A stretch of DNA of 35,815 nucleotides from a virus. Both the position numbers and the translations under genes were made by a program. The stretch is taken from positions 1 to 35,815 of the IMG/VR virus record IMGVR_UViG_3300020439_000032; one strand, given 5' to 3'. Position 1 is the first letter of the stretch; each line of letters opens with the position of its first letter. The notes beneath the pieces were generated by a model. It searched no databases, was not told the DNA's origin, and was given only the letters and a program-made list of their open reading frames with translations. Shown in pieces: positions 106-14,898 of the stretch.

Positions 106-123
106 CACCTCAGACGCAGGATA

Positions 124-157
124 GTGCTATGCAGAGCGACACATCATGTCGTAGCAC
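124..157 (+). other. bulged stem-loop
   Basis: GTGCTA (124-129) pairs with TAGCAC (152-157), and CGACA (137-141) pairs with TGTCG (147-151). Together they form an 11-bp stem with a 7-nt one-sided bulge and a CATCA loop. It is followed by A-rich rather than U-rich sequence, so it does not look like a terminator. It may be a small RNA or a processing site. Confidence 0.4.
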
Positions 158-200
158 CACAAAAGAACAAAAAAAGAACAAAAAAAACTTTAAAAAAAGC

Positions 201-230
201 TTGACAATGACCCACTAAATCGGTTAGCCT
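201..230 (+). promoter_or_regulatory. TTGACA-N18-TAGCCT promoter, copy 1
   Basis: TTGACA (201-206), an 18-bp spacer and TAGCCT (225-230), followed by TATAAT. This is one of four copies of the same element (the others begin at 551, 14016 and 14839), sharing TTGACARTGAC and TTAGCCT. A start codon (GTG 237) lies exactly 36 nt after the first T of TTGACA, as in the other copies, and opens a peptide of 12 codons or fewer ending at 275. An alternative reading takes TATAAT at 231-236 as the -10, but the 24-bp spacer then argues against it. Confidence 0.7.
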
Positions 231-307
231 TATAATGTGATGATAACAAAGGAGAAGAACGGACTAATAAAGTAACGGTGTAGAGTCGAATATCGATAGA
301 CATTAAC

Positions 308-357
308 CCAATCCCTCGTAGATGATAGAAGTGTTCGCAACCTTCCGAGGGGATTGG
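308..357 (+). promoter_or_regulatory. two-tier leader hairpin with UUCG loop
   Basis: CCAATCCCTCG (308-318) pairs with CGAGGGGATTGG (346-357), 11 bp with one bulged G. Inside it GAAG (328-331) pairs with CTTC (342-345), capped by a GTG-UUCG-CA mini-stem (tetraloop 334-337). It ends 21 nt before the ATG at 379 and leaves the GGAG ribosome site (about 370-373) outside the stem. It could be an attenuator, an mRNA stabiliser or a protein-binding site. Confidence 0.5.
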
Positions 358-378
358 TGTATCTAAACGGAGTGATTT

Positions 379-582
379 ATGGTAAAAATGTATGATTTAA
401 ACAAGGCAAAGACGGTAGCAGAGTCTATTTCCACGTTAAATAAGGGTGAAATAGAGATGCTCGCAGAGATAATGGTCGCAAATAATATCGCAGATGACCT
501 AGAATTCTACTTAAATGCCAGTAAATTTGATAAAAAAGTCACAAAACTACTTGACAATGACCCCTCTTTTGGTGTAGCCTAG
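379..582 (+). CDS. hypothetical protein, 67 aa
   Basis: Not recognised. A small, mostly helical and acidic protein with no membrane segment, signal peptide or known motif. The start is supported by a GGAG-type Shine-Dalgarno a few bases upstream. It is the first gene after the folded leader and the promoter at 201. The last codons (LLDNDPSF) are written with TTGACAATGACCC, so the end of the gene doubles as the -35 part of the next promoter (551-580). Confidence 0.7.
   Translation: MVKMYDLNKAKTVAESISTLNKGEIEMLAEIMVANNIADDLEFYLNASKFDKKVTKLLDNDPSFGVA
551..580 (+). promoter_or_regulatory. TTGACA-N18-TAGCCT promoter, copy 2
   Basis: TTGACA (551-556), 18-bp spacer, TAGCCT (575-580), inside the end of the 379-582 gene. 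The next ATG (587) is exactly 36 nt from the first T. The first 13 bases are identical to copy 1. Unlike the other copies it has no TATA-like hexamer just before the start codon, which favours TAGCCT as the true -10. Confidence 0.6.
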
Positions 583-586
583 CAGT

Positions 587-757
587 ATGAATGGGATAAT
601 AAACGCAATAAAAGACTATCATAACCTATCAGAGAGTGAACAGGCACATGTTGATGCAGCTCTAGATAGTCTAGAAGATAGTCAAGAAGAAGGCGTATGC
701 GTGTGCGGTGCTAAGGACTGCCCCGAAGAATACGTACATACGACCAGTGGCTATTAA
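587..757 (+). CDS. small cysteine-containing hypothetical protein, 56 aa
   Basis: Not recognised. The N-terminal half is an acidic helix (SESEQAHVDAALDSLEDS). The C-terminal half carries CVCGAKDC, three cysteines that could bind a metal. There is no Shine-Dalgarno; the ATG lies where a transcript from the 551 promoter should start, so translation may be leaderless. It begins 5 nt after the 379-582 gene and its end overlaps the next gene out of frame. Confidence 0.55.
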   Translation: MNGIINAIKDYHNLSESEQAHVDAALDSLEDSQEEGVCVCGAKDCPEEYVHTTSGY

Positions 758-914
758 TAGATTTAAGTTAGAGACGTGGTATGACCCCGAAGGGGAACCA
801 ACGGTGGAGTATTTTACGTCTCTCAAAGAGTGCTCTCAGTTAGCGGCCAGTCGCTCTAAAGAGGGTTTGACCGTAGTAATAGAAAGAGTCGGAGAGAGTC
901 AAGAAACCTTTTAG
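747..914 (+). CDS. hypothetical protein, about 55 aa
   Basis: Not recognised. The reading frame is open from GTG 708, but GTG 747 is preferred because it overlaps the preceding gene by only 11 nt; neither has a clear ribosome site. The protein looks like a short beta-rich domain (KLETWYDPEGEPTVEYF) followed by a helix. No motif supports a function. The start is uncertain. Confidence 0.5.
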   Translation: MAINRFKLETWYDPEGEPTVEYFTSLKECSQLAASRSKEGLTVVIERVGESQETF

Positions 915-1043
915 GGCTCCTGTGAGGGTCTCAGAGCAGTGTTTTGGGACTCCTATAAAGAAAACAAATGGGGTCATGCACCCACCCTGAAAGTTGGCGA
1001 AGATTATATGATTAACCAGTGAAAAATTTTTTCGGGCAAAAAT

Positions 1044-1226
1044 ATGAGTGAAAACGAATTTATGATTGAACAAGATAAATGGAATGCGATTCTTGATACA
1101 CTGCGTGAGAGCGGTGCTATGAATATGTTTGGTGCTCCCCGTTACCTTAACGAAGAGTTTGGCATTCCCATGCACCAAGCAAAAGAGATATTCATGGCAT
1201 GGACTTTGACTTACACTAAGGAGTAA
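1044..1226 (+). CDS. hypothetical protein, 60 aa
   Basis: Not recognised. A short, mainly helical soluble protein; the second half (APRYLNEEFGIPMHQAKEIF) could form a helix-turn-helix-like pair, but this is weak. It heads a run of tightly coupled small genes through 1818. The 129 nt upstream hold no gene but include an inverted copy (924-936) of a sequence at 63-75. Confidence 0.65.
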   Translation: MSENEFMIEQDKWNAILDTLRESGAMNMFGAPRYLNEEFGIPMHQAKEIFMAWTLTYTKE

Positions 1227-1229
1227 ACT

Positions 1230-1346
1230 ATGTACGATATATCTGAAAAAGGTGAGAAACAATATAAACGTGTGAAGTATTTAATTTATGGTCTGTACGT
1301 ATTCATACCATTGGTTATGATATTCTTCACTAATGGGGCACACTAA
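1230..1346 (+). CDS. tiny single-pass membrane protein, 38 aa
   Basis: Residues about 15-35 (YLIYGLYVFIPLVMIFF) form one strongly hydrophobic helix after a short charged N-terminus. AAGGAG (1218-1223) lies 6 nt before the ATG. The stop overlaps the next start (TAATG). Function unknown; tiny phage membrane proteins can affect lysis timing or exclude superinfecting phage, but nothing here points to either. Confidence 0.65.
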   Translation: MYDISEKGEKQYKRVKYLIYGLYVFIPLVMIFFTNGAH

Positions 1347-1669
1347 TGAGTAATATATTCTACGGTTCAATGACTCATTCTTACAACGGTAAGAAACGTA
1401 AGACCACAGCGTATAGGCGTAAAAAGTCTGTTCCACCCTTGAGTGGTAAACCTTTACAAGTTCCTGACCATGTGTTGGAGCGTCAAGAGGCGGCACGTAA
1501 ACACCGTGAACAGTACCCTTCTCTCGGCGTAGGTACGTCCAAGTATGTACCCCAAGAGTCGCAGGACTATAAGAAAGAGATAAGTAAACAGTACACAGTC
1601 GCACCAGCGTACAACAAAGGTGCGTACCAAGTGATTAATCCCGATAACATTGTTGATATAGGTAAATGA
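1346..1669 (+). CDS. basic hypothetical protein, 107 aa
   Basis: Not recognised. The N-terminus is rich in Lys/Arg and Tyr (NGKKRKTTAYRRKKS), and the rest is low in hydrophobic residues, so it is probably largely unstructured and able to bind nucleic acid. It is coupled to the membrane protein before it (TAATG) and to the one after it (ATGA). The composition resembles short basic proteins of T4-like marine phages, but no family can be named. Confidence 0.65.
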   Translation: MSNIFYGSMTHSYNGKKRKTTAYRRKKSVPPLSGKPLQVPDHVLERQEAARKHREQYPSLGVGTSKYVPQESQDYKKEISKQYTVAPAYNKGAYQVINPDNIVDIGK

Positions 1670-1818
1670 TAGAACTCGCAATACAAATAACTTTGGTGTT
1701 ACTTGCAGGTGCCTTTGCAGTCGGTTCCGTCTTAGTGTATGCTGACATGAAAGCAAATAAGACGGGTAAGTTTGATAAGCAAGGTCAAGTCAAGTATACC
1801 AAAGGTGATAATACGTAG
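1666..1818 (+). CDS. small membrane-anchored protein, 50 aa
   Basis: An N-terminal hydrophobic helix (residues about 3-25, ITLVLLAGAFAVGSVLVY) is followed by a lysine-rich polar tail. Overlaps the previous gene by ATGA and the next by TAGTG. There is no lipobox, so it is probably an uncleaved anchor. Function unknown. Confidence 0.6.
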   Translation: MIELAIQITLVLLAGAFAVGSVLVYADMKANKTGKFDKQGQVKYTKGDNT

Positions 1819-2513
1819 TGACTGAACATATTACGTTATTCCCCACGACCATTCTCAAGCAACAGGTAACAGTGTCTGCGGAAGAGAAGGATTTGTGGTT
1901 TACTTTATTCCTGAAGCATTCCAATGCTCACGGTGAGTCCAGTGATTATATTGGTTACGAACAATTACACTTGGAAGAGTGTGTGGCAAATTTTTATTAT
2001 GACACCCTACAAAAGGCAACTCACGAATATTTAACTATGTTGTCCATCTCTGATGCCAGTAATCTGAATATCTATCTGACCAAGTCATGGTTTAACGTGA
2101 CCAATCGTGCAGGCATTAATCGACACAATCATGCGGAACACCATATCTCGTTTGTATATTATCCGCACGTCCCTCAAGACAATAACGCTGGTCTGATTCT
2201 TGAACACAGCGGTAAGCACCCGAATGAACCCTACGAAGGTTTTCTGCAAACCAACACCTTTGAACAAAATCAATTCAATGCAGTGACGTGTAACCTTCCT
2301 GTCAGTGAAGGTATTTTATATTTGTATCCTTCCGATTTGTATCATTACATTGACGCTGACTATCAACCCATTCAAGGGTTTCACAATAAACAGGATTTAA
2401 GTAATGCAAGAGTTTGTGTTGCAGGAGATATGCTGTTGACTGCACAACACAGTACGTATCAACGAGCACTTCCGCCGTTGGAAAAGTGGCAAAAACTAAA
2501 TGGAAATATTTGA
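1818..2513 (+). CDS. 2OG-Fe(II) oxygenase-like protein
   Basis: 231 aa, starting at GTG within the preceding stop (TAGTG). It resembles the putative 2-oxoglutarate/Fe(II) hydroxylases of the TIGR02466/PF13759 type. Residues 102-116 carry the HNH-x5-ISFVYYP signature with likely metal ligands at H103/H105. A distal His (H176 in YLYPSDLYHYID) is followed by R198, the expected 2-oxoglutarate-binding Arg. Such proteins are common in marine T4-like phages; substrates are unknown, and a protein or nucleotide could be hydroxylated. The window also encodes an IscA-like protein, but no direct link is shown. Family assignment is fairly safe, function is not. Confidence 0.7.
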   Translation: MTEHITLFPTTILKQQVTVSAEEKDLWFTLFLKHSNAHGESSDYIGYEQLHLEECVANFYYDTLQKATHEYLTMLSISDASNLNIYLTKSWFNVTNRAGINRHNHAEHHISFVYYPHVPQDNNAGLILEHSGKHPNEPYEGFLQTNTFEQNQFNAVTCNLPVSEGILYLYPSDLYHYIDADYQPIQGFHNKQDLSNARVCVAGDMLLTAQHSTYQRALPPLEKWQKLNGNI

Positions 2514-2658
2514 TTTTATATGGGTACTGCTGAGTATCGGCATTACCATTGGTATCGTGATAATAGCAGTCACTGCTTTTATCCGTGTGGGTTGGGTACT
2601 GGCAAAATGGTTAGCACCCTTACTTTTGATTATATACATAATCGCAAACTGGGTATAG
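2500..2658 (+). CDS. two-helix membrane protein, 52 aa
   Basis: Two hydrophobic helices (about residues 5-27 and 33-51) with a short RVGW turn containing one Arg. It overlaps the end of the oxygenase gene by 14 nt in another frame. A hairpin topology with short ends is compatible with a small holin-like or exclusion protein, but this is a guess from shape only. Confidence 0.55.
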   Translation: MEIFDFIWVLLSIGITIGIVIIAVTAFIRVGWVLAKWLAPLLLIIYIIANWV

Positions 2659-2670
2659 GAGAAAAAACAA

Positions 2671-2913
2671 ATGAATGAACAAGGTGAACTCTTTGGTGTC
2701 TACGACTGGGAGAATGTCGAGAAAGCAAACAAGTATGCAAAAGGTATTACCTTTATCGATTATAAATTTAAACGCAAGGGCGATTATATAATTTTCGATA
2801 AGGAACTTAAACTGGAAAATCTTGGCATGAAAGAAGGTGACGTATTGGACGTAAAACTTTCTGACACCAATCAGGTATTCTTTGCAATAAGGAAACCTGA
2901 CAATGCAATTTGA
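2671..2913 (+). CDS. hypothetical protein, 80 aa
   Basis: Not recognised. A soluble mixed alpha/beta protein with a compact C-terminal beta segment (GDVLDVKLSDTNQVFFAIRK). TAGGAGA upstream (2656-2662) supports the start. The end overlaps the following gene by 11 nt, so the two are probably translated together. Confidence 0.65.
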   Translation: MNEQGELFGVYDWENVEKANKYAKGITFIDYKFKRKGDYIIFDKELKLENLGMKEGDVLDVKLSDTNQVFFAIRKPDNAI

Positions 2914-3115
2914 AATCAATGAACTGGAAGAAGCACTCTTACAAGACGGACAAGTTGTCCCTGTGGACATACGCAATCGTCTCAATGTCTTACGTGACTT
3001 TGCACGTACCTATGACGCATTGCTGGAGTTGGTGCAAGTTGCACTGCCTCACACTTATGCAGTCATGTTTGAGGACGAAGGCGAACTAATTATAGCGGAC
3101 GATGAAGACGATTAA
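2903..3115 (+). CDS. acidic hypothetical protein, 70 aa
   Basis: Not recognised. Mostly helical with a strongly acidic C-terminus (EDEGELIIADDEDD). Overlaps the preceding gene by 11 nt with a ribosome-site-like AAGGAAA before it. An acidic tail of this kind could mimic nucleic acid or bind a basic partner; no motif confirms that. Confidence 0.65.
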   Translation: MQFEINELEEALLQDGQVVPVDIRNRLNVLRDFARTYDALLELVQVALPHTYAVMFEDEGELIIADDEDD

Positions 3116-3143
3116 AAGAATTCAATTATATCTAAAAACCCTC

Positions 3144-3173
3144 TTGTCAAAGACAGGGTCGATAGATTATAAT
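3144..3173 (+). promoter_or_regulatory. sigma70-like promoter
   Basis: TTGTCA (3144-3149), 18-bp spacer and a perfect TATAAT (3168-3173). The predicted start lies about 25 nt before the ATG at 3207, leaving room for its AAAGGAGA ribosome site. This is why the shorter start was chosen for the downstream gene. Confidence 0.65.
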
Positions 3174-3206
3174 GAATACTCAATAAGCAAACCAAAAGGA
3201 GAAAAT

Positions 3207-3464
3207 ATGGCAGCTCGATTGACTAAAAAGCAGAAGGTACTAAACCTTCTATCAAAAGGTAACAACGTGGCGTGGACTACAATCCGCAACAGGTTTGACC
3301 TTACATCACCTAGAGCAATGATTGACACTTTGAGAAGTGAAGGTCATGTAATCTACGTGAACACCGTTGGTGGAAAAACCTTCTACAGGTTAGGAACACC
3401 TTCAGCAGCGATTATCCAAGCGGGTATCGATGCGGTTCTTGGTACTGAACAAGCATACGCTTAA
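3207..3464 (+). CDS. winged-helix DNA-binding protein
   Basis: 85 aa. Starts LTKKQKVLNLLSKG then WTTIRNRFDLTSPRAMIDTLR, a helix-turn-helix, followed by GHVIYVNTVGGKTFYRLGTP, the expected beta wing. I recognise the same layout from short conserved proteins of T4-like cyanophages. The frame is open back to 3102, but the ATG at 3207 has a strong AAAGGAGA site and its own promoter (3144-3173). Alone between a promoter and a terminator, it forms a one-gene unit, fitting a regulator of phage or host transcription. The DNA target is unknown. Confidence 0.7.
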   Translation: MAARLTKKQKVLNLLSKGNNVAWTTIRNRFDLTSPRAMIDTLRSEGHVIYVNTVGGKTFYRLGTPSAAIIQAGIDAVLGTEQAYA

Positions 3465-3569
3465 TCAGTGACTGGGTTAGGGGATAAGGGATACGAACAT
3501 CACCAAGTCCACAATTTCTTTCACGACATGAGTGAGAGTGATATCCACCCCCTAGAAGGTTGACTAAAT
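3465..3569 (+). other. structured 3' untranslated stretch
   Basis: About 105 nt between the winged-helix gene and the terminator. TAGGGG and GGGATA near its start can pair with TATCC and CCCCTA near 3543-3554, closing a large loop. No gene is seen. It may be a stabilising 3' end or a small RNA released with the transcript. Confidence 0.35.
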
Positions 3570-3603
3570 AAAGGGTAGGCGGTCAAACGTCTATCCTTTT
3601 TTT
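3570..3603 (+). terminator. rho-independent terminator
   Basis: AAAGGGTAGGCG (3570-3581) pairs with CGTCTATCCTTT (3588-3599), a 12-bp stem including two G-U pairs, with a 6-nt loop and a run of T that extends to 3603. It ends the transcript of the winged-helix gene. Confidence 0.85.
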
Positions 3604-3615
3604 ATGGAGTATAGT

Positions 3616-3765
3616 ATGACAGAGTATGACACAAATGAAAAGTTTTTGACAATCATTACCTTATTCAATTCATTGCCCCTAGAGGATAGATTATCCCTAC
3701 TCAAATTATTGAAACAACATCATAAGGACGCAATTGCGAATCCAGTTTTACTGAGCGAAGAATGA
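3616..3765 (+). CDS. small hypothetical protein, 49 aa
   Basis: Not recognised. Mostly helical, leucine-rich (LPLEDRLSLLKLLKQHH), soluble. GGAG at 3606-3609 supports ATG 3616; an in-frame ATG at 3604 lies in the terminator tail and has no ribosome site. The stop overlaps the carbamoyltransferase start (ATGA), so it is probably co-translated with that enzyme and could be an accessory or regulator of it. Confidence 0.6.
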   Translation: MTEYDTNEKFLTIITLFNSLPLEDRLSLLKLLKQHHKDAIANPVLLSEE

Positions 3766-4970
3766 AAGTAATAGGTATTAATACATCACACGACACTGCT
3801 ATCTGTTCGATGACAGACGGTAAGATAGATTTTTATCACGAAGAAGCACGTTGGTGCCGTAACAAATGGTTTAGTCCTGATTGGAATCATGAGAATAGTC
3901 AATTTAATGATACCAATTTTAAATCATTGGACTATGCATTTGGTAAGGACGGCGAAAAAGTTGAAGAGTATGACACGATAGGTTTTGTGTCTTTTGATAG
4001 ACGTTTCCATGACTTAGATTTTTATTACAAAGACGAAGAAGACAAAGACGTTATCTTTAATTATCTCGAAGATAGATTCCTCGCAGAAGACATACGTAAC
4101 TTTATCGTAGCAGAACCCATTACAAGAGAACGTGTTGACGAATGTGCTGAAACATTTCGTGAACACTTCACTCCTAACAAAGGGCGAATCGTACACCAAA
4201 AAGATAATGACACAAATGATATCATACTGAATGATAAAATTATTGAACCCTACGGTATTACCAGTTATGACTTCTTACAGAATGAACACCACCTGTTTCA
4301 TGCAATGGGAGTCTTGTATCAATCACCATTCAAAGAAGCACTGATATTAGTTTGTGACGGTGGCGGTGCAAAGTTTTTCCATGACCAGTTTCCAAACTAT
4401 CAAGAAATGGAATCTATGTTTTATCTGAGTGAACAAGACATTACTCCATTGTACAAACACTTATCTAATTCACGTGCAGTTGCAACAATGGATATCCAAA
4501 CATGGGACTCAGAATACTTTGCACACCCACAAAGATTTGGTCTTGACGATGCTGGATTTGACGTTGAGTTAAGTTCTGCTATAAGTGAAGGACAGAAGTT
4601 TAGTGCCCTTTCATCGTTATTAGGTTATGACCAGCATGGACGAGCTGCTGGTAAGGTTATGGGTATGGCAAGTTACGGACTAGAAAAAAGAACAGACGCT
4701 TACACGTCTCAAGACTTAGCAGGTAGACTGCAAACAGAAACAGTTCAACATACTCGTAAACTTATTGAACGACTTGTTGAATATAAACCTGAATGCAAAA
4801 ACATTTGTTTGAGTGGTGGATATGCATTGAACTGTGTGGGTAACTATCAGTATCTTGACATGTTCCCTAATCATAACTTCTTTATTGACCCTTGTGCTCA
4901 TGACGGTGGAACTGCAATTGGGTCGTGTGTTAAAAATACTTTTTATAAAGACACGGGATACACATTATGA
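3762..4970 (+). CDS. carbamoyltransferase, N-terminal (Kae1-like) half
   Basis: 402 aa. Matches the N-terminal domain of NodU/CmcH/TobZ O-carbamoyltransferases (PF02543). It has the opening GINTSHDTAI (5-14), the metal-binding HHLFHA (176-181), LVCDGGG (196-202), GKVMGMASYG (297-306), LSGGYALNC (350-358) and HDGGTAIG (380-387). This domain makes the second step, passing carbamoyl from carbamoyl-adenylate to a hydroxyl group. The C-terminal domain is a separate downstream gene overlapping by ATGA. Related phage enzymes are known to carbamoylate 5-hydroxymethylcytosine, so DNA modification is possible, but no hydroxymethylase is visible here. The substrate could also be a sugar or nucleotide. 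Confidence 0.85.
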   Translation: MKVIGINTSHDTAICSMTDGKIDFYHEEARWCRNKWFSPDWNHENSQFNDTNFKSLDYAFGKDGEKVEEYDTIGFVSFDRRFHDLDFYYKDEEDKDVIFNYLEDRFLAEDIRNFIVAEPITRERVDECAETFREHFTPNKGRIVHQKDNDTNDIILNDKIIEPYGITSYDFLQNEHHLFHAMGVLYQSPFKEALILVCDGGGAKFFHDQFPNYQEMESMFYLSEQDITPLYKHLSNSRAVATMDIQTWDSEYFAHPQRFGLDDAGFDVELSSAISEGQKFSALSSLLGYDQHGRAAGKVMGMASYGLEKRTDAYTSQDLAGRLQTETVQHTRKLIERLVEYKPECKNICLSGGYALNCVGNYQYLDMFPNHNFFIDPCAHDGGTAIGSCVKNTFYKDTGYTL

Positions 4971-5671
4971 TTACAGAAAACGTACATGGTATAGAAGAAG
5001 AGAATGCAATTGAGTTTGCGCCAGGCAAATATGTTATTCGTACTCAAGACGAAGCAGTCCGACAACTTGCTAATCAACAAATCGTTGGAATCTTTCAGGG
5101 TGAGTCAGAAATTGGCCCACGTGCATTGGGCAATCGTTCTATATTGTTTGACCCGACTAATCCTCATGCAAAAGAAATTGTTAATCAAATTAAAGAACGT
5201 GAAGAGTTTAGACCTTTTGCTGGTTCTATGTTGTTAGAATACTTTGACGAATACTTTATAACTTCTACTCTTAAAGAATCGCCTTACATGAGTTATGCGA
5301 TTCCAGTTAAGAAAGAAAAGGTGCAAGAGATAAGTTCTATTGTTCACCATGACTTTACTTGTAGAATCCAAACAGTTACCGAAGAACAGAACAAGAACTA
5401 TTACAATCTAATCAAAGCATGGCATGAAGAAAGTAACTGCCCGATTGTCTTTAACACTTCATTCAACCTAGGTGGTGAAGCAATGGTTGAAACTATTGAA
5501 GACGCAATGGATACTTGCAAAAGGTGTGATATCAATTTTATCTACATACCCGAAGACCAAGACATAGAAGTAAAGGAAATGTCTAAGGAAGATTATGTTG
5601 AACTTACTAAAGATGACACTTCTACTGAAAAACTTTTAAGTGCAGATAAGGGTGCATTTATAAATAGTTGA
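4967..5671 (+). CDS. carbamoyltransferase, C-terminal (YrdC-like) half
   Basis: 234 aa. Matches the C-terminal domain of the same family (PF16861). FQGESEIGPRALGNRSIL (43-60) and FRPFAGSML (81-89) are the classic core, and NTSFNLGGEAMV (163-174) is the nucleotide-binding signature near the end. In TobZ this domain makes carbamoyl-adenylate from ATP and carbamoyl phosphate. The usual enzyme is one chain of roughly 550-600 aa; here 402 and 234 aa are linked by an ATGA overlap, with both halves carrying intact motifs. That looks like a stable two-subunit enzyme rather than a broken gene. Confidence 0.85.
   Translation: MITENVHGIEEENAIEFAPGKYVIRTQDEAVRQLANQQIVGIFQGESEIGPRALGNRSILFDPTNPHAKEIVNQIKEREEFRPFAGSMLLEYFDEYFITSTLKESPYMSYAIPVKKEKVQEISSIVHHDFTCRIQTVTEEQNKNYYNLIKAWHEESNCPIVFNTSFNLGGEAMVETIEDAMDTCKRCDINFIYIPEDQDIEVKEMSKEDYVELTKDDTSTEKLLSADKGAFINS
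5659..5666 (+). promoter_or_regulatory. T4-type late promoter box TATAAATA
   Basis: A perfect TATAAATA, the sequence recognised by the gp55/gp33/clamp late RNA polymerase in T4. It lies inside the end of the carbamoyltransferase gene and exactly 5 nt before ATG 5672, so transcription should begin at or next to the start codon. Confidence 0.65.
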
Positions 5672-5989
5672 ATGGAACTAACCAATAAAGCAATAGGAAA
5701 ATTAATTGAGAAAACTGCTGGAAAATATAACACTGTACGTGTTGGGCTCACTGGTGGGGGTTGCGCTGGTATGGAGTATGTATTTAAGTATAACGAACCC
5801 ATTGACAATGACCCAACCGATACCGTGCTTGACTACGGAAAATTTACAATACGGATTGATAGCAAGTCCCTACCCTTCTTACAAGACGCAACCCTCGACT
5901 ATGTGGTGCGTGGAATCAACGAATCATTTGAAATCATCAACCCCGCCGAAGAATCAAGATGCGGTTGTGGAGTCTCGGTGATATTTTAG
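5672..5989 (+). CDS. IscA/HesB-type iron-sulfur protein
   Basis: 105 aa, the normal length of the family. It has the three conserved cysteines: C31 in GGGCAGMEY, and C97 and C99 in SRCGCGVSV near the C-terminus. A-type proteins hold or deliver Fe-S clusters or iron. Homologues occur in marine T4-like phages. The ATG directly follows the preceding stop, with no ribosome site, and is placed 5 nt after a late promoter box, which suggests late expression. The client protein is unknown. Confidence 0.88.
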   Translation: MELTNKAIGKLIEKTAGKYNTVRVGLTGGGCAGMEYVFKYNEPIDNDPTDTVLDYGKFTIRIDSKSLPFLQDATLDYVVRGINESFEIINPAEESRCGCGVSVIF

Positions 5990-6004
5990 AAAAAGAGGTA
6001 TATT

Positions 6005-6199
6005 ATGAAATGGTGGGAAACATTATGGAAGCAGGACGTAGAAAAAGATACGTGGCAAGAACCTGACCCTGCAGAGGTGACAATCGATAATGCTTATAAG
6101 ACTCGCTGGATATGGTATCATACCATTCTTGGAATTGGCATTTTCATGGTTAACATATTATTGATTGCCATTCTAATTGTGCTGGCAATAAAATTATGA
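6005..6199 (+). CDS. single-pass membrane protein, 64 aa
   Basis: A charged N-terminal half of about 35 residues is followed by one long hydrophobic helix (about 38-63, TILGIGIFMVNILLIAILIVLAI) ending in K-L. Preceded by AAGAGGT. The likely topology is a C-terminal anchor. It overlaps the nuclease gene by ATGA. Function unknown. Confidence 0.7.
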   Translation: MKWWETLWKQDVEKDTWQEPDPAEVTIDNAYKTRWIWYHTILGIGIFMVNILLIAILIVLAIKL

Positions 6200-6531
6200 A
6201 ACCTTCAAGTGCAAAAGCAAAAGGTAGATTACTGCAGAAATGGTTTGCTAATTTACTCGTAGAAAAACTTGACGTTGACCCCGAAGATTTAGAATCACGT
6301 CCTATGGGAAGTGGTGGTGAAGATATTATTATGGGAAAACAGACTAGGAATATTTTCCCTTATAGTATAGAATGTAAGAACCAAGAGGCAGTTAACGTAT
6401 GGAAAGCATACGAACAGGCACAAGACAACTGTAAAGGATACGAACCTTTAGTTGTAATTAAACGTAATCGTTCTAAACCTTTAGTGGTCATGGACGCAGA
6501 AGCATTTGTAAAATTACATGACAAAACATAA
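6196..6531 (+). CDS. PD-(D/E)XK nuclease-like protein
   Basis: 111 aa. The pattern GSGGEDIIM (39-46) followed by YSIECKNQE (56-64) gives D43, E59 and K61 as the expected metal and catalytic residues of a PD-(D/E)XK fold. A short basic N-terminal helix precedes it. The size and layout resemble small resolvase-type or VRR-NUC-like nucleases of T4-like marine phages. It probably cuts branched or damaged DNA during recombination or packaging; no specific substrate can be assigned. Confidence 0.65.
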   Translation: MKPSSAKAKGRLLQKWFANLLVEKLDVDPEDLESRPMGSGGEDIIMGKQTRNIFPYSIECKNQEAVNVWKAYEQAQDNCKGYEPLVVIKRNRSKPLVVMDAEAFVKLHDKT

Positions 6532-6552
6532 CCTATTCCTAAATACAAACAC

Positions 6553-7938: not shown

Positions 7939-8620
7939 ACCCTCTATTCAGGAAAGGTGTCGTGAAAAAGCTTTAGATGCGTGGGGAGACGTAGAAGAAG
8001 CAATCGATAACTGGCCTAAGAAATTTGATATGTACAAGTGGTTAAACCAGTTGGGTTATAGTCCTATGGTTGTTAAGTACATGAGTGGTCTCAATGAAAA
8101 TACTATCTACGAAATCAAAAACGAAGAAGGTTGTGAACAATTAGCAGAAGGTTACAATTGGTTAAAGACACCAAAGCAAAAACAAAAGTATCTAGACTTC
8201 CATATAAAAATAGAATCTGATATCCAAGAGTGGTTGAAGAACAATAAGATTGTACGGAAGAAAAGAATCCAAACACCAGCACAGAAGGTAAAGAAACTGA
8301 ACTATTTACAATCAGGAGAAGGATTGACAAGTATAGACCCAGTTGAAATCATTCGTGCCAAGAAACTATTTACATACAATGTGAAGAGCAGAAAGTTGAG
8401 GTGCTACAGTTCATACGGATTGAACGTAAAAAACACGTCAATAACTTCATGCGATAAAGTTGAAGAAAAGACCTTGACAGATATTAAGTTGCTTGATAGG
8501 CTTATTAAAGGTGGCAATATTATTGCAAATGGTTTCATGGACGAGTTGAGAACTAAGTCTAAAACGCCAGAAAATAATCTTGTTAATAAAAATTGTATAT
8601 TAGTGAAAGTTGTTAAATGA
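7919..8620 (+). CDS. conserved T4-like hypothetical protein, 233 aa
   Basis: Function not recognised. Starts PSIQERCREKALDAWGDVEEAIDNW, then a Lys/Arg-rich middle (KKRIQTPAQKVKKL) and a beta-rich C-terminal part. I recall proteins of the same layout immediately before RNase H in T4-like cyanophages, but none has a known role. Overlaps both neighbours (20 nt and ATGA), so it is probably co-expressed with RNase H. The basic middle would suit nucleic-acid binding. Confidence 0.7.
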   Translation: MIQPKSKPSIQERCREKALDAWGDVEEAIDNWPKKFDMYKWLNQLGYSPMVVKYMSGLNENTIYEIKNEEGCEQLAEGYNWLKTPKQKQKYLDFHIKIESDIQEWLKNNKIVRKKRIQTPAQKVKKLNYLQSGEGLTSIDPVEIIRAKKLFTYNVKSRKLRCYSSYGLNVKNTSITSCDKVEEKTLTDIKLLDRLIKGGNIIANGFMDELRTKSKTPENNLVNKNCILVKVVK

Positions 8621-9453
8621 TACTTATAGATTTTAGTCAGACCATAATCGCTGGTCTAATGGCACAGTTAAAAGTAAATGACGGAGAAATGAGTGAAGAC
8701 TTATTACGTCATATGATTATTAACTCTTTGCGTAACTATCAAAAAAGATACGCAGAAGAGTATGGGGAAATAGTATTGTGTACAGACGCAGCTAATCCAT
8801 GGAGACGAGACTTCTATCCCAACTACAAAGCAAACAGAAAGAAAGCAAGAGACAATGACGATATGGATTGGACTCTTATCTTTGATACATTACATAAAGT
8901 AAAAATGGAAATCAAAGAGAACTTCCCCTATCGTTACATGTACGTAGAGAATGCAGAAGCAGATGATATCATTGCTGTTCTTTGTAAACAAGCAGATGAA
9001 AAGGTTTTGATTGTAAGTGGTGATAAAGACTTTCAGCAACTGCATAAATATGATTATGTAAAACAGTGGTCGCCTAATCTAAACCAGTTTGTAGTGCAGG
9101 ATAGACCCGAAGAGTTTTTAAAAGAACATACACTGCGAGGTGATAAGTCGGACGGTATTCCGAATATCCTTTCAAACGATAACTGTATGGTTGAAGGTAT
9201 CAGGCAAACGCCATTGCGTAAACCTGTCTTTGACGCATACATGAGAATGACGATTGAAAGTGACGATAAATACTATAGGAACTACTTGAGAAATCAAACT
9301 CTTATTGACTTTGATTTTATTCCCAAAGATGTGGAGAGTAGAATATTACAAGAGTATGAGAAGACAGAAGTCGTACAAGGCAAAGTCTTTGATTACTTGA
9401 GAACTCATAGGTTAGATGACCTATTAACTAATGTCGAGGATTTTAGATTATGA
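8617..9453 (+). CDS. rnh: RNase H (T4 Rnh, FEN-1 family 5' nuclease)
   Basis: 278 aa, close to the T4 protein. Acidic metal-binding clusters are visible in order: LIDFSQT (3-9), the WRRDFYPNYKANR arch-region segment, VENAEADDIIAVL and VSGDKDFQQL. These are the FEN-1/T4 RNase H hallmarks. GDKSDGIPNIL is the later H3TH-type motif. The enzyme removes RNA primers and short DNA flaps from lagging-strand fragments, working with gp32 and the clamp. The start overlaps the preceding gene by ATGA. Confidence 0.9.
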   Translation: MILIDFSQTIIAGLMAQLKVNDGEMSEDLLRHMIINSLRNYQKRYAEEYGEIVLCTDAANPWRRDFYPNYKANRKKARDNDDMDWTLIFDTLHKVKMEIKENFPYRYMYVENAEADDIIAVLCKQADEKVLIVSGDKDFQQLHKYDYVKQWSPNLNQFVVQDRPEEFLKEHTLRGDKSDGIPNILSNDNCMVEGIRQTPLRKPVFDAYMRMTIESDDKYYRNYLRNQTLIDFDFIPKDVESRILQEYEKTEVVQGKVFDYLRTHRLDDLLTNVEDFRL

Positions 9454-9959
9454 CAGAGAAGAAACGAGGAAGAGGTAGACCTAAAGGGGCACCAAACAAA
9501 CCCCTAATGGATTTGCCTACTGAGAGAACTAATCTCACAGCAAACGCAGACGTTTATGAAATACTAGGACAAGCAAACCTAGTAGAAGAAGTGGACAAAC
9601 AAGCACATGGTTTGAAAGTCTACAACGAAAGAAACGGTGCAGTAAGTAAAGTGTTGAAGTGGGTATTTGACAAGAATATTAATTCGACTCTACCCGAAGG
9701 GCCAACACCGTATGGTAAAAACGAATCACCTGCTACTGACCTGACTGAAACGTCACTACGATTTGAACATAAACTGTTCAAGTATTTTGTAACAGAAGAA
9801 TTACCCAATCTCAAAAGAGAACAAATGTGGGTAGGAATGTTGGAAGGTATCCCTGCTAAAGAAGCAGAAATGATGGACTTGATTCATCAAGGTAAATTCC
9901 CATTCAAAAATATTTCAGAGGAAGCGGTCAAAATGGCCTTTCCTGAACTTTTAGGATAG
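9450..9959 (+). CDS. conserved T4-like phage protein (DUF6433-like)
   Basis: 169 aa. Begins with a basic AT-hook-like tract, KKRGRGRPKGAPNKP, which could bind the minor groove of AT-rich DNA. The rest resembles a conserved marine T4-like family that I associate with DUF6433 (memory only): an EILGQANLVEEVDK helix, then KVLKWVFDKNINSTLPEG and a final helical block. Overlaps RNase H by ATGA. Role unknown; the hook suggests DNA association. Confidence 0.65.
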   Translation: MTEKKRGRGRPKGAPNKPLMDLPTERTNLTANADVYEILGQANLVEEVDKQAHGLKVYNERNGAVSKVLKWVFDKNINSTLPEGPTPYGKNESPATDLTETSLRFEHKLFKYFVTEELPNLKREQMWVGMLEGIPAKEAEMMDLIHQGKFPFKNISEEAVKMAFPELLG

Positions 9960-9966
9960 ATAAATA
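9959..9966 (+). promoter_or_regulatory. possible late promoter box GATAAATA
   Basis: One mismatch from TATAAATA, in the 106-nt gap before the 10066 gene. It would give a leader of about 95 nt. Weak, because similar one-mismatch boxes also occur inside coding sequence. Confidence 0.3.
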
Positions 9967-10065
9967 TTTTCAGTAGACCGAGACTATACATAGACAAAAG
10001 AGTATGCATTGTCGCTACTCAGTAAAGAAACTTAATAGTCGTGTTCTACTCCATGGAGTTAAATT

Positions 10066-11202
10066 ATGAATGATAAATTTGAATCAGAACCTTTTCAGTT
10101 ACCAACTGAATTACAAAACGTACCCTCAAACTACACCATGTCTCATATCACATATGAAGACGTTAATGGTATTCTATCATTAGTAGAGATTGCCCTCGCA
10201 AGAGGTTCTATTAAAGGTGACGAACTTGCAATTCTAAATCAAATCAGAAACGACTGTTTACAGGAAGTTCAAGACTATCAAGTTTGGGTTCAAAACCGTC
10301 AACAAATTATGGCGCTTGAACAACAGATTGAGAACGAGAAAAAGAAAGCAGAACAAGCCAAAGAAATCGAAAGTATCAAGGCAACTGCTGACGCAAAAGT
10401 TCAGGCAGCTCAAGACGCTTCTAGGATTCTACAAAACAGAGTTAACGAATTAGAGAACCAAGCAAAAGCACGTGGGATTACCCCAGTCAATTCTGAACAC
10501 AGTGACGAAGAACTTAACGTTGCAATGAAACCTGTTAATATGGGTGCACCAAGTAAGTCATGGGAGAATGCAAGAGCACAGAATCCAGTTCCTACAATCA
10601 CTAATCAACCAACTGAACCAGTCACGGTTGAAGAGGAAATAGATAATATTAGTAATCAAATGCAAAACGCATGGAACAATATTGATGTCGAAGTCGAATT
10701 TGATAAACCGAATGAGGTGGACGAGGTGTCTGCCTCGGAGGCTGTAAAACCAATGTTTGAAATCAAAATGGGACAAGACGGTAACGTTCCATTAGGACAA
10801 CAAGTCACAGAAGAAGACGTTAATATGAACGTCACAGAAATGGACGACTTTGAACCTATCCAAGGTGACGGTGAAGTAGAGATTGAATTACAAGAAGACC
10901 CTGAATCAATTGCAGACGTTCAAGCAATGAAAGAAGCAGTTGAAGAAGAGTACGAAGAAGTTGTAATTCCTAACTCTATGGAACTTCAAAAAATGACCAA
11001 AGCAAAAATTAAAGAAGTTGCTGACAGTATTGGAATAACTGTTTCTGATAATCAAACAAAGGGTGCCATGATAAAAGACTTTGAAGAAGAGTCTTGGAAC
11101 TTAATTAAAGAAGCAGAAGAAAGCGAAAACGCAACGGTGCATACTGATGAAGACATCATTAGAGACGGTGGCTATTTCGGAGACGACAACGACTCTAAGT
11201 AG
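10066..11202 (+). CDS. acidic coiled-coil protein with C-terminal SAP/Rho-N-like motif
   Basis: 378 aa, function not recognised. Residues about 70-145 are a charged coiled coil (QQIENEKKKAEQAKEIESIKA). The middle, about 150-310, is low-complexity and very acidic. Near the C-terminus MTKAKIKEVADSIGI with TKGAMIKDFEEE looks like the short helical fold of SAP or Rho-N domains. GGAG (10055-10058) supports the start. The protein may be a scaffold or a DNA-associated protein; calling it structural would be speculation. Confidence 0.65.
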   Translation: MNDKFESEPFQLPTELQNVPSNYTMSHITYEDVNGILSLVEIALARGSIKGDELAILNQIRNDCLQEVQDYQVWVQNRQQIMALEQQIENEKKKAEQAKEIESIKATADAKVQAAQDASRILQNRVNELENQAKARGITPVNSEHSDEELNVAMKPVNMGAPSKSWENARAQNPVPTITNQPTEPVTVEEEIDNISNQMQNAWNNIDVEVEFDKPNEVDEVSASEAVKPMFEIKMGQDGNVPLGQQVTEEDVNMNVTEMDDFEPIQGDGEVEIELQEDPESIADVQAMKEAVEEEYEEVVIPNSMELQKMTKAKIKEVADSIGITVSDNQTKGAMIKDFEEESWNLIKEAEESENATVHTDEDIIRDGGYFGDDNDSK

Positions 11203-11698
11203 TCCCGCCCCTCATAATCCAAACTACGATATTCCCAAGGGACACTTTAGAGTGAACATACCTTGGGAATGGTCATGTCGTATGGGATTCAATGGTGACT
11301 TAGACTATGCATTGGTCTACAAAGTAGAAGACGATATTGTGTTGTCAGCAAACCTAATGGACGAAGACTTTTACGGAGAAGTAAAACTTTACTACCACAA
11401 AGAGAATGGTAATCCTAAATCTACAAACGTAGATACAGTTTATGATTCTCAATTCATAACCTTGCCAGAAATCGACTTTACAAACTACAGTGTGGGTGAT
11501 ACCATTAATATGGAATACATTAATCCTGCACCAAAGAATGCTTACTTCTTATATGAGCATGTGAGTATGGACGATGTATTAGAAGGTGAGAGACACATAC
11601 GGTTATCCAAAGGAGAAGAAAATGGATTGGACACTACCGACAACCCAAGTGATGGGCAAATTCAACGAGTGGAAGGAGAAGGACACAGCACTGTTTAG
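11147..11698 (+). CDS. hypothetical protein, up to 183 aa
   Basis: Not recognised. The conserved-looking body starts at HNPNYDIPKGHFRVNIPWEWSC and is a beta-rich acidic domain. The first ATG (11147) overlaps the preceding gene by 56 nt; GTG 11168 or another non-ATG codon may be the true start, and no ribosome site decides. The C-terminal 30 residues are low-complexity and overlap the next gene. Confidence 0.6.
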   Translation: MKTSLETVAISETTTTLSSPAPHNPNYDIPKGHFRVNIPWEWSCRMGFNGDLDYALVYKVEDDIVLSANLMDEDFYGEVKLYYHKENGNPKSTNVDTVYDSQFITLPEIDFTNYSVGDTINMEYINPAPKNAYFLYEHVSMDDVLEGERHIRLSKGEENGLDTTDNPSDGQIQRVEGEGHSTV

Positions 11699-11906
11699 AA
11701 CTGCTCTGTCTAAAACTGGACAAGTAATAATTCAGATTCAGGCCTCCGAAGAAGATTACGATAAACGCAAAGTAAACGTAATTGAAAAACTGACAGAAGC
11801 AGGGTTTTATCACCAACATGAATTTGAGGTTATGCAAGTACCTAATGTTATTCACTTAGCATATACACCAAATAAAAATTACATAGTTGAGAAGATTTCT
11901 ATATAA
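11622..11906 (+). CDS. hypothetical protein, 94 aa
   Basis: Not recognised. ATG 11622 has AAAGGAGA just upstream and was preferred to an in-frame codon at 11586. It overlaps the previous gene by 77 nt, unusually much for this genome. A small alpha/beta protein (TGQVIIQIQASEEDYDKRKVNVIEKL) with no known motif. Its last codons carry the TATAAATA box of the next gene. Confidence 0.65.
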   Translation: MDWTLPTTQVMGKFNEWKEKDTALFRTALSKTGQVIIQIQASEEDYDKRKVNVIEKLTEAGFYHQHEFEVMQVPNVIHLAYTPNKNYIVEKISI

Positions 11907-11909
11907 ATA
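11902..11909 (+). promoter_or_regulatory. T4-type late promoter box TATAAATA
   Basis: Perfect match, spanning the stop of the upstream gene and exactly 5 nt before ATG 11915. Predicts a leaderless or nearly leaderless transcript. Confidence 0.65.
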
Positions 11910-11914
11910 ATAGT

Positions 11915-12163
11915 ATGAGCATAGAATACAACGACTTCGGTTTTACCGCTATGGACGCAGACGAACTTGCGTCTGTAGATACTAAAATCGTAGAAAAAAC
12001 AACAACTGCTACAGAAGTTATCAATAAACTAGATAACTTTATCAGACCTCTATTGGAGAACCTTGCAAAGGATTCTGATAAAGACTATATCTACTGGCCA
12101 AAAAGAGTCGAGATAATCAATAAGAAAATTGAAGAACTTGATTTAATTCAAAAAAATATTTAA
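11915..12163 (+). CDS. hypothetical protein, 82 aa
   Basis: Not recognised. A helical acidic protein; DNFIRPLLENLAKDSDKDYIYWPKR, followed by a helix, resembles short conserved T4-like phage proteins that I cannot name. It has no ribosome site and sits 5 nt downstream of a late promoter box, so it is probably a late, leaderless gene and perhaps part of virion assembly. Confidence 0.65.
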   Translation: MSIEYNDFGFTAMDADELASVDTKIVEKTTTATEVINKLDNFIRPLLENLAKDSDKDYIYWPKRVEIINKKIEELDLIQKNI

Positions 12164-12171
12164 AAACCCTA

Positions 12172-12201
12172 TTGACGATGACGGCTGTTATGGCCTATAA
12201 T
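12172..12201 (+). promoter_or_regulatory. sigma70-like promoter before the DUF262-HNH unit
   Basis: TTGACG (12172-12177), 18-bp spacer, TATAAT (12196-12201). It shares the TTGACRATGAC start of the leaderless promoter family but has a canonical -10 and no start codon at +36. It gives a leader of about 100 nt before ATG 12305, which contains a small ACGC-ATA-GCGT hairpin (about 12238-12248). Confidence 0.65.
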
Positions 12202-12304
12202 AGACGTACTAGTTGAGAAATCAACGGTGGCTTCAGGACGCATAGCGTAGAAGTCTAGATTAACGCACCCCATTTATTTGGACGTGCATAACTAAAAAAA
12301 ACTT

Positions 12305-12460
12305 ATGAATATTAAAGATGTGATTAAGTCTTTAGCGAAGTCAAAAGACTCTAAACCAGTGGCTTCACTCGAACCTTTCTTTTCTGAAAGGAAAAAAAAT
12401 GCACCCTTGGTGTTGAACCTAAACAACAAGGAGGCAGTCAATGTTAGTACAACTAAGTGA
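12305..12460 (+). CDS. small hypothetical protein, 51 aa
   Basis: Not recognised. A Lys/Ser-rich N-terminus (MNIKDVIKSLAKSKDSKP) is followed by SLEPFFSERKKNAPLVLNLN. It overlaps the start of the DUF262-HNH gene by 20 nt, and its end contains that gene's AAGGAGG site. It could be a regulator or immunity partner of the nuclease, but context is the only evidence. Confidence 0.5.
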   Translation: MNIKDVIKSLAKSKDSKPVASLEPFFSERKKNAPLVLNLNNKEAVNVSTTK

Positions 12461-13757
12461 TTTGCTTGACGGCAAAGTATTTGCACAAAGAGTATTCTTT
12501 ACGAATAAAGATTTGTGGAATATGAGAGAGGAGATAGAAGTATCACCTGATGCATATCAGAGATTCTTCCATGCAGATTATGATTGGCAACAATTGTATA
12601 TTGCTTCTTTCTTTAACCCTATGGTTGTAATCCCTGAGATTGCATTAAGAGTTGGAAAGAATATTCCTAGTAGAAGTGGCGAAGTCATGGACGGTTGTCA
12701 ACGTGTATCTACTGGATTCGCTTTCAAAACAGGTGACTTAGCATTACCTGAGATTGATTCTTTAAAGTATTGGATAGACAAAAACGAAAGTCACCATGAC
12801 TTACGTGGTAGACGTTGGAGAGATTTACCAAGAACTGCAAAAGATACTTTTGAAGATTATCAAATGGCTGCTCAAGTCTACAAAGATTTGACACCTGAAC
12901 AAGCAGGGTGGACATTCGTTAGTGTATTAAACAATACCAACACACTGAATGCTCAAGAGAAAAGACAGGCAATATCTTCTGATATGTCTAGAACTGTACA
13001 ACAATGGGCAAGATTAAACCCACTTGGAATGTTTGATACTACAGACGGAATGACTTTAGATTACATTGCAGGTGCGGAACACAAACGTCTTGACGTTGAT
13101 AAGACTCTTGCAGAATTGTGTTACATGTTATCTACAGACGACTTCCTTAAGACAGGAACAACTGGTAAGACAATTGATTTGTTCTACAGGGAACAAGCAA
13201 GAGATTGTCAGAACAAGTTTCCAGCAACTAAGATTACTAAAGAAGTATTGACGTTTGCGGAACAAAGTTTCAAAGGTTTTCCAACTGCAAAAACTATTGC
13301 ATTGAAACCATGGAGAAACTATTGTTATCTTGTTTCTAAGTTTCTTAAAGCAAAGATTACCATAGACCCAATTGAGTTTATCAAGGTCTACAAGACTGCG
13401 GTCAAGAATCTGAAAGACAAGAGTTTATTACAAGACGGTTTGACTGGTACACCATACGAGTTACGTATGAGAGGTAACGGTGCTGAAGATACTAGAGTTT
13501 CACTAGAAATGCTTGAACTTGAAATGTCAAAAGTAAATTTCAAGCAAACAAAACTGGACTCGAAGAGAACATTCACTAGAGAAGAAGTCGCAAATGCATA
13601 CGAAGAACAGAATGGTAAGTGTGCTATCTGTGGTGAAGACCTAGGTGAGTTCAATGAAAACGTACATGGTGACCACTTCCTTTTATACAAGGACGGACAC
13701 CCAACTACCCCTGATAACTGTGACGCTGTACATGCGTCCTGCAACTGGAGAAAATAA
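12441..13757 (+). CDS. DUF262-HNH protein, GmrSD-like nuclease
   Basis: 438 aa with a strong AAGGAGG site (12428-12434). The N-terminal half is DUF262-like: MDGCQRVSTGFAF (83-95) corresponds to the DGQQR nucleotide-handling motif but has Cys for the first Gln. WTFVSVLNNTNTLNAQEKRQAI matches the later F-x-x-(L/I)N...LN-x-x-E motif. The C-terminal 50 residues are an HNH nuclease: C394/C397, D411-H412, N426, H431 and C434. GmrSD-type enzymes restrict DNA with modified cytosines. In a phage, this could cut competitor or host DNA, or act like a homing nuclease. It has its own promoter and a small partner gene. Confidence 0.75.
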   Translation: MLVQLSDLLDGKVFAQRVFFTNKDLWNMREEIEVSPDAYQRFFHADYDWQQLYIASFFNPMVVIPEIALRVGKNIPSRSGEVMDGCQRVSTGFAFKTGDLALPEIDSLKYWIDKNESHHDLRGRRWRDLPRTAKDTFEDYQMAAQVYKDLTPEQAGWTFVSVLNNTNTLNAQEKRQAISSDMSRTVQQWARLNPLGMFDTTDGMTLDYIAGAEHKRLDVDKTLAELCYMLSTDDFLKTGTTGKTIDLFYREQARDCQNKFPATKITKEVLTFAEQSFKGFPTAKTIALKPWRNYCYLVSKFLKAKITIDPIEFIKVYKTAVKNLKDKSLLQDGLTGTPYELRMRGNGAEDTRVSLEMLELEMSKVNFKQTKLDSKRTFTREEVANAYEEQNGKCAICGEDLGEFNENVHGDHFLLYKDGHPTTPDNCDAVHASCNWRK

Positions 13758-14032
13758 TGGAAAGGAGTATTTACGATAGTAACGAAGCAGTCAAAAAGAT
13801 TGTTGAGATTGGGCGTAACATGATTACTGCCTGTGAGAAGAATGTCTTTTATCCGCAAGACGATTATATGTGGAACACTGCTGTAGTAGCAGGTAACAAA
13901 TTGACCACATTAGGTACGACTTGGGGACTTAAATCTGTCAAGGATTTGTCCAAGTCTGAATCGAAAGCGGTACAGGACTTCCTTAAAAATAAGGAAAAAA
14001 TAATGAAACTAGCTGTTGACAGTGACAGCTAA
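13757..14032 (+). CDS. hypothetical protein, 91 aa
   Basis: Not recognised. A helical soluble protein coupled to the DUF262-HNH gene by TAATG, with GGAG upstream. The final codons (AVDSDS) overlap the next promoter: TTGACAGTGAC at 14016 encodes VDSD. The tight coupling suggests shared expression with the nuclease. Confidence 0.6.
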   Translation: MERSIYDSNEAVKKIVEIGRNMITACEKNVFYPQDDYMWNTAVVAGNKLTTLGTTWGLKSVKDLSKSESKAVQDFLKNKEKIMKLAVDSDS

Positions 14033-14045
14033 AATCGGTTAGCCT
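14016..14045 (+). promoter_or_regulatory. TTGACA-N18-TAGCCT promoter, copy 3
   Basis: TTGACA (14016-14021), 18-bp spacer, TAGCCT (14040-14045); ATG 14052 is exactly 36 nt after the first T. The -35 lies in a short hairpin, TAGCTGT (14010-14016) against ACAGCTA (14025-14031). The run ATCGGTTAGCCTTATA is shared with copy 1. Confidence 0.7.
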
Positions 14046-14051
14046 TATAGT

Positions 14052-14498
14052 ATGAATAAGAAAGTAATTATCTTCGATGTTGACGGGACTATTGCAAACG
14101 TTGAACATAGGAGACATTTTGTAAATCAAAAACCTGCAGACTGGAAGTCGTTTAGAGCAGAAACTGTAAACGATACCCCTGTTGAACATGTTTGTGACAT
14201 TGCAAAAAGGTTCATTGCCCAAGGTGATGAGGTTGCTTTCTTTTCTGCTAGGAATGAGTCTGAAAGAGAGGTTACTGAGAAACAAATTTCTGAGTGGATT
14301 GGAGACGGTCACAAAGGATTGTTCTTAAGACCTGACGGTGATTTCAGACCTGATGAAGAATTCAAATCCGACTTAGCCGATAAGTTTGAAGAGTTGGGTG
14401 GTAAAATTGACTTGGTCTTTGACGACAGAAACAAAGTCGTTGACATGTGGAGACAAAGAGGAACCACTGTTGTCCAAGTCGCAGAAGGAGATTTTTAA
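14052..14498 (+). CDS. HAD-family 3'-phosphatase like the Pnkp C-terminal domain
   Basis: 148 aa. HAD motifs: DVDGT (D9, D11), FFSAR (S65), K105 and VFDDR (D124, D125). The end, DDRNKVVDMWRQRG...QVAEGDF, strongly resembles the C-terminus of T4 polynucleotide kinase/phosphatase. The kinase domain is absent: the protein begins directly at the phosphatase. It probably removes 3'-phosphates from RNA or DNA, so host or phage ends can be ligated or degraded. There is no ribosome site; the ATG sits at the predicted start of the transcript from the promoter just before it. Confidence 0.8.
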   Translation: MNKKVIIFDVDGTIANVEHRRHFVNQKPADWKSFRAETVNDTPVEHVCDIAKRFIAQGDEVAFFSARNESEREVTEKQISEWIGDGHKGLFLRPDGDFRPDEEFKSDLADKFEELGGKIDLVFDDRNKVVDMWRQRGTTVVQVAEGDF

Positions 14499-14827
14499 TG
14501 GAAGATAAAGTAAAGAAACTAAACGAACTTGAAAACCTAAAATGGGAAATGGAATCCTTGATTAGGAGAGTCAACGAAAAGACTCGACAAATTAAGTACA
14601 TGGACACGCCTTCTGAAATCTACATGAAAGTCGAGAGTTGGGCAGAAGAAAACGGTATCGACTCAGGCGACATGGAGTGGAAAGTTAAAGATGTTCGTGA
14701 AAAGGTCAATGAACTTGAGAGTGCTATCTATGAGTTAGTAGAACCCTTTGAAGAAAAACTAAGGGATATCGAGAACGAATACGATGAACTCGAATGGGAA
14801 ATTGAGGAAATAAAGGAGGCAGGTTAG
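14498..14827 (+). CDS. coiled-coil hypothetical protein, 109 aa
   Basis: Almost entirely helical and charged (VKKLNELENLKWEMESLIRR and later LRDIENEYDELEWEIEEIKE), with two predicted coiled-coil stretches. AAGGAG (14485-14490) and TAATG coupling support ATG 14498. The stem of the following terminator begins inside its last codons. Function unknown. Confidence 0.65.
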   Translation: MEDKVKKLNELENLKWEMESLIRRVNEKTRQIKYMDTPSEIYMKVESWAEENGIDSGDMEWKVKDVREKVNELESAIYELVEPFEEKLRDIENEYDELEWEIEEIKEAG

Positions 14828-14860
14828 ACTTATAACGCTTGACAGTGACCTGCCTTTTTT
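14817..14860 (+). terminator. rho-independent terminator overlapping a promoter
   Basis: AGGCAGGT (14817-14824) pairs with ACCTGCCT (14848-14855), followed by five more T (14856-14860). The 23-nt loop holds the -35 box of the next promoter, and the T-run lies in that promoter's spacer. Confidence 0.75.
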
Positions 14861-14868
14861 GTTAGCCT
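14839..14868 (+). promoter_or_regulatory. TTGACA-N18-TAGCCT promoter, copy 4
   Basis: TTGACA (14839-14844), 18-bp spacer, TAGCCT (14863-14868); an ATG (14875) is exactly 36 nt after the first T. It is nested in the terminator of the upstream gene, so one operon ends where the next begins. Confidence 0.7.
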
Positions 14869-14898
14869 ATACACATGATGAGAAAAAAAGGAGACAAT

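Follow-up and report, generated by a model that had tools for sequence, protein, structure and literature searches.

Comparison of a 35,815-nt stretch of viral DNA with its relatives led us to an overall explanation that we consider very likely: phages of this clade appear to use sigma70-type promoters with a Y-R-T initiator, and the AUG at the 5' end of the resulting mRNA would often be the start codon. The promoter anatomy, the fixed spacing, the absence of Shine-Dalgarno (SD) sequences and the frame relations between starts can be read directly from the compared sequences. The whole stretch is referred to below as the window, and all features given for it lie on the + strand.

Promoter copies in the window and their phage

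The record, a 35.8-kb virus contig, carries T4-type gp32, gp53, gp5 and gp6 genes. Its gp32 and the Methylophilales phage Melnitz counterpart share 61% identity, and in a clade member the DNA polymerase reaches no more than 47% identity with the best-ranked isolates, which suggests that the phage comes from a deep branch of marine T4-like phages without cultured members. A search of phage records with window positions 1-20000 retrieved no near match. When bacterial genomes were searched for the polynucleotide kinase gene (pnk), the single match (L336, JAAXIF010000078.1; 80% identity) came from a bin labelled Sphingobacteriales and is probably a misbinned phage contig.

The motif TTGACARTGAC-N13-TAGCCT occurs in the window at 201, 551, 14016 and 14839, and these are its sole matches at up to three mismatches. 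Shuffled sequences gave a chance expectation of 0.14, and four copies were reached in 0 of 100 shuffles. As the original prediction had stated, TTGACA and TAGCCT are 18 bp apart in every copy and an RTG begins 36 nt after the first T (GTG 237; ATG 587, 14052 and 14875). Its claim that the starts at 587 and 14052 lack an SD was also confirmed, with none found upstream of either.

Promoter 2 (551-586; TTGACA 551-556, N18, TAGCCT 575-580, N6) overlaps the 3' end of an ORF at 379-582 and is followed by a 56-aa ORF (587-757) that begins at the predicted +1 without an SD and is predicted to be leaderless. Promoter 3 (14016-14051; TTGACA, N18, TAGCCT 14040-14045, N6) precedes pnk (14052-14498), which encodes a HAD phosphatase domain, has no SD and is likewise predicted to be leaderless. 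Homology supports the start codon of both genes: homologs of the 56-aa protein in relatives align from residue 1 with 54-58% identity, and the pnk start at 14052 is fixed by the N-terminal DVDG motif. Promoter 4 (14839-14874; TTGACA, N18, TAGCCT 14863-14868, N6) precedes a DUF7717 gene (14875-15276) with two in-frame starts, the 5'-terminal AUG 14875 and, 24 nt downstream, an AUG at 14899 led by a good SD in the intervening AAAGGAGACAATATG.

Promoter 1 (201-236; TTGACA 201-206, N18, TAGCCT 225-230, predicted +1 at 237) is followed by no comparable ORF at +1, as GTG 237 opens 12 codons only. We read this GTG as an initiator and not a start codon, and the initiator alone explains it; leaderless starts require AUG and are inefficient with other codons (PMC3616915), which fits this assignment. 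Promoter 1 would instead drive a predicted structured leader or small RNA (237-357) that includes a hairpin at 308-357 with GTTCGCAACCTTCCGAG. The RNA is conserved over ~120 nt (a TCGTAG...GATAG-GTTCGCAACCTTCCGAG hairpin whose stem shows compensatory changes), and an alignment of five sequences indicated that the predicted hairpin keeps its pairing through changes on both sides. Besides the window copy (237-357), the element was found in L013 (13894-14040), L332 (243-375), L333 (4009-4141) and L335 (242-375). In L332-L335 it follows another promoter, ends with a GC-rich hairpin and a T run, as an intrinsic terminator would, and lies just before a tRNA-Asp. An Rfam search with the 201 leader or RNA gave no family match.

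A fifth, related site at 12172-12207 reads TTGACGATGAC-N13-TATAAT (TTGACG, ATGAC, N13, TATAAT 12196-12201; predicted +1 at 12208) and has no start codon at +36. The leader 3' of this promoter (12208-12310) begins near GTTGAGAAATCAAC and carries a hairpin with a GAAA loop, and the leader sequence differs at the counterpart of this promoter in L005.

Promoter anatomy and clade-wide spacing

An IMG/VR scan for the exact motif retrieved 52 stretches, which together with the window represent 33 distinct variants. With TTGACARTGAC fixed (one mismatch at most), TAGCCT, TAAGCT, TATAAT, TATACT, TAGGCT, TAAAAT or GATAAT occupied the slot 18 bp further on. Because this slot varies among relatives as a sigma70 -10 does, the earlier reading of TAGCCT as the -10 is supported. 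The motif has the sigma70 form (TTGACA, a spacer within 16-19 bp, TANNNT) and does not match the T4 late promoter (TATAAATA, with no -35). An RTG after TTGACA and a T-tract in the spacer (CACTTTTTTG; e.g. 207-224 and 14845-14862) recur across lineages, and a plain sigma70 promoter gives no obvious reason for either.

The region around the predicted transcript start was compared in 83 distinct promoters of less than 80% mutual identity, pooled with and without a gene start. Position 36 was a purine in 77/83, position 37 a T in 72/83 and position 35 a pyrimidine in 73/83, giving a conserved Y-R-T at +1 with ATG at about half of the sites. CAT is the textbook initiator of transcription, and since Y-R-T at positions 35-37 resembles it, we place +1 at position 36. 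That transcription starts where the start codon begins, as originally proposed, is thus most likely. After AT at +1/+2, G outnumbered A by 43:13 (P ~2e-9, too small a value because the sites include related sequences and are not phylogeny-independent), and base composition predicts the opposite. This G excess and the conservation of Y-R-T indicate that the fixed spacing stems from transcription initiation, with ATG as a selected extension. The original prediction had held the rigid spacing hard to explain other than by leaderless mRNAs, a view that is not supported, as the spacing is fixed even without a start codon, through the conserved Y-R-T.

The spacing was also counted in the window and seven larger clade contigs, taking all TTGACA-spacer-TANNNT sites with downstream sequence ignored in their selection. 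With an 18-bp spacer, ATG lay at offset 6 in 28 of 62 sites (mean at offsets 14-57, 1.68); at other spacer lengths this peak was much weaker or absent. A TATAAT-like box ended exactly 6 nt before the ATG of 43 clade genes (called by a simple longest-ATG rule), against a background expectation of ~8, which puts TANNNT ~12 bp before the start codon. Among such genes of at least 90 aa with a TTGAC-type -35, 0/18 had an SD, versus 48% of 859 others; those started in this way without an SD include pnk, a CobT-like peptidase (phrog_459), a deoxyribonucleotidase and DNA polymerase gp43. Neither a six-base excess (9 genes, ~12 expected) nor ATG-offset enrichment at TTGACA-N18-TANNNT was found in Melnitz, Mosig, HTVC008M, Syn9, S-PM2 and T4, and the strict motif is absent from Melnitz and Mosig, the nearest isolates.

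A second class of promoters, with TATAAT-N6-ATG and a weaker -35 (AACCC-N-CTAGAC, CTTACA or CTAGTTA), precedes gp55 (the late sigma factor), UvsY and some polymerase genes. In G001, G013, G014, G016 and G017 it lies ahead of gp55, UvsY, primase-like genes and others. A candidate in the window (16861-17550, promoter and gene) has TAAAAT at 16861-16866 and, after six bases, ATG 16873 of a 225-aa PD-(D/E)XK nuclease gene with no SD. It is possible that this class represents an activator-dependent middle promoter.

Uses of the 5' AUG and competing explanations

We classified 82 distinct promoters with enough downstream sequence by start type. In 30 of them the 5' AUG opens an ORF (30 aa or longer) with no SD-led alternative, and in 26 the 5' AUG is followed by an SD-led AUG, either in frame (16), overlapped as ATGA by the TGA that closes a 5' mini-ORF (7), or in another frame (3). 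A further 16 have an SD-led AUG only, and 10 have neither start. Because many copies serve SD-led genes, leaderless use is not the defining purpose of the promoter, and the general statement that it was built for leaderless mRNAs is not supported. The gene at 587 illustrates both uses, being predicted to be leaderless in the window and SD-led in L227. By start type, 551 and 14016 in the window are probably leaderless, 14839 dual and 201 neither; for 587 and 14052 this agrees with the original assignment, as both lack an SD and the spacing is kept in relatives.

The DUF7717 relatives suggest that the 5' AUG of this gene is translated, because its two AUGs lie 18, 21, 24 or 27 nt apart, a multiple of three whenever the 5' AUG is present; in relatives without it the corresponding distance is 21 or 22. 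At several dual sites the mini-ORFs have 8-13 codons (MMRNK...) and a TGA overlapping the SD-led ATG (L008 11556, L010 6560, L014 12974, L021 6591, L257 10171 and L270 5108), and they are candidate leaderless coupling peptides.

These counts bear on a simpler account, in which Y-R-T-R is needed at +1, the RTG is a by-product, and translation is SD-led or coupled to the upstream gene. R-T at positions 36-37 in most sites, including the gene-less site 201 and sites with ATA or GTA, is what this account would expect, as are the 16 sites that serve SD-led starts exclusively and the promoter-less pnk orthologs that adjoin an upstream stop. We nevertheless consider it unlikely, since it does not account for the excess of G over A at +3 (43:13), nor for the 30 sites whose ORFs have no SD-led start, among them conserved 800-aa and 148-aa proteins that end N-terminally at the ATG. 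The frame bias relative to SD-led starts, moreover, is seen only where AUG is present, with frame 1 found in 4/46 cases with a 5' AUG versus 16/30 without (P 3e-5, again too small for sites that are not phylogeny-independent).

Orthologs of pnk allowed the spacing to be followed across lineages. We compared 80 loci with 76-100% amino-acid identity, using the pattern TTGAN-N17/18-TANNNT-N6-ATG, in which the six bases are preset and a spacer of 17 or 18 is allowed. The pattern was present in frame at 54/80 loci, representing 27 distinct promoters, all of which have a spacer of 18 although 17 was permitted, and which carry nine different -10 hexamers. These promoters differ in their six bases and in the codons that follow, and the N-terminus before DxDG has 6, 7, 8, 9 or 15 residues. 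Most of the other loci lack such a promoter, and several of these adjoin the upstream gene; at L109, L110 and L138, ATGATG lies four bases 3' of the -10. The 36-nt spacing to the start codon is therefore kept in relatives, both in the pnk promoters and in the clade contigs, as the original prediction required.

That the distance stays constant while the sequence changes favours function over a copied cassette, in which promoter and first codons were duplicated together and the spacing kept by descent. Such copying could explain the spacer sequence common to sites 201 and 14016 (TAAAATCGGTTAGCCTTATA-like) and the recurrence of ATGATGAGAAA at many loci, but it is very improbable and largely refuted, as the spacer, -10, six bases and first codons of pnk all differ at a distance of six, and second-class promoters keep the same six bases with another -35. 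Scarcely credible is a repressor operator, or a true -10 at the TATAAT/TATAGT that sites 201 and 14016 carry within the six bases (231 and 14046, 24 bp from TTGACA). As to the -10, this hexamer reads AGCAGT, ATACAC, AGCCGT etc. elsewhere and relatives place TATAAT in the TAGCCT slot; the TATAAT at 231 was rejected as a -10 because it is not conserved in relatives.

Proposed arrangement and known systems

Under the preferred explanation of sigma70-type promoters with a Y-R-T initiator, host RNA polymerase would read a promoter with TTGACA as the -35 (RTG follows in most cases), 18 bp of spacer containing a T-tract, and TANNNT as the -10 (TAGCCT in the window). The R of Y-R-T, 7 nt after the -10, would be +1, and where +3 is G a CAT or TAT initiator would yield an AUG at the 5' extremity of the mRNA. 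Leaderless mRNAs would thus arise for pnk, the CobT-like peptidase, the deoxyribonucleotidase, DNA polymerase and the 56-aa gene at 587, and gp55 and UvsY would be leaderless through the second -35 type. A further group has its 5' AUG 18-36 nt upstream of an SD-led AUG, in frame or ATGA-overlapped, and here the two starts are probably coupled or both in use. Copies without AUG would serve SD-led genes or, at 201, the structured RNA. We infer the exact transcript start, the host polymerase, leaderless initiation and timing from these comparisons, with gene content as the one basis for the "early or middle" timing of the promoters. If transcription reads through from promoters further upstream, the same genes could also have leadered mRNAs. 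It is also conceivable, if rather doubtful, that 5'-terminal AUGs of early and middle mRNAs, alone or joined to an SD-led AUG in frame or through ATGA overlap, support two modes of translation of one gene set, through 70S (leaderless) and 30S (SD) initiation, perhaps with a shift during infection as ribosomes are altered.

The arrangement should help to correct start-codon calls in the marine T4-like clade. It also provides a natural series of orthologs switching among leaderless, dual and SD-led starts, and makes the joint use of a 5' AUG and an SD-led AUG testable.

Like the T4 early promoters and the BPROM-predicted early promoters of Melnitz and cyanophages (PMC9004378, PMC3037559), those described here are sigma70-type promoters of T4-like phages, but Melnitz, Mosig and T4 lack the six-base coupling to ATG, and Melnitz and Mosig favour a 17-bp spacer. 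Earlier descriptions of marine T4-like promoters used general predictors and, in the portions available, give no start-codon spacing; we found no reports of leaderless genes in T4-like phages in the open-access literature. In the late promoters of phiKZ (cited in PMC5312081) the motif, TATG, also overlaps ATG, but these promoters use a phage-encoded polymerase, lack a -35 and start at the G, unlike here.

Leaderless genes of bacteria are marked by TANNNT ~12 bp before the start (PMC3160421), and the promoters here resemble them in that TANNNT begins exactly 12 bp before the ATG and no SD is present; they differ in belonging to lytic T4-like phages, in having a -35 that is strong and conserved and a spacer of 18 bp, and in serving, among others, genes for replication and sigma factors. 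In phages, leaderless mRNAs have mostly been presented as isolated cases; they have been proven for PY54 cI and cro (PMC4488713). There and in lambda cI, as here, a host-type promoter is placed so that the mRNA begins with AUG, but those are single repressor genes with RACE-mapped starts, whereas the arrangement predicted here from sequence recurs genome-wide: a whole marine T4-like lineage seems to place transcript starts at the start codons of core genes, among them those for the late sigma factor and DNA polymerase.
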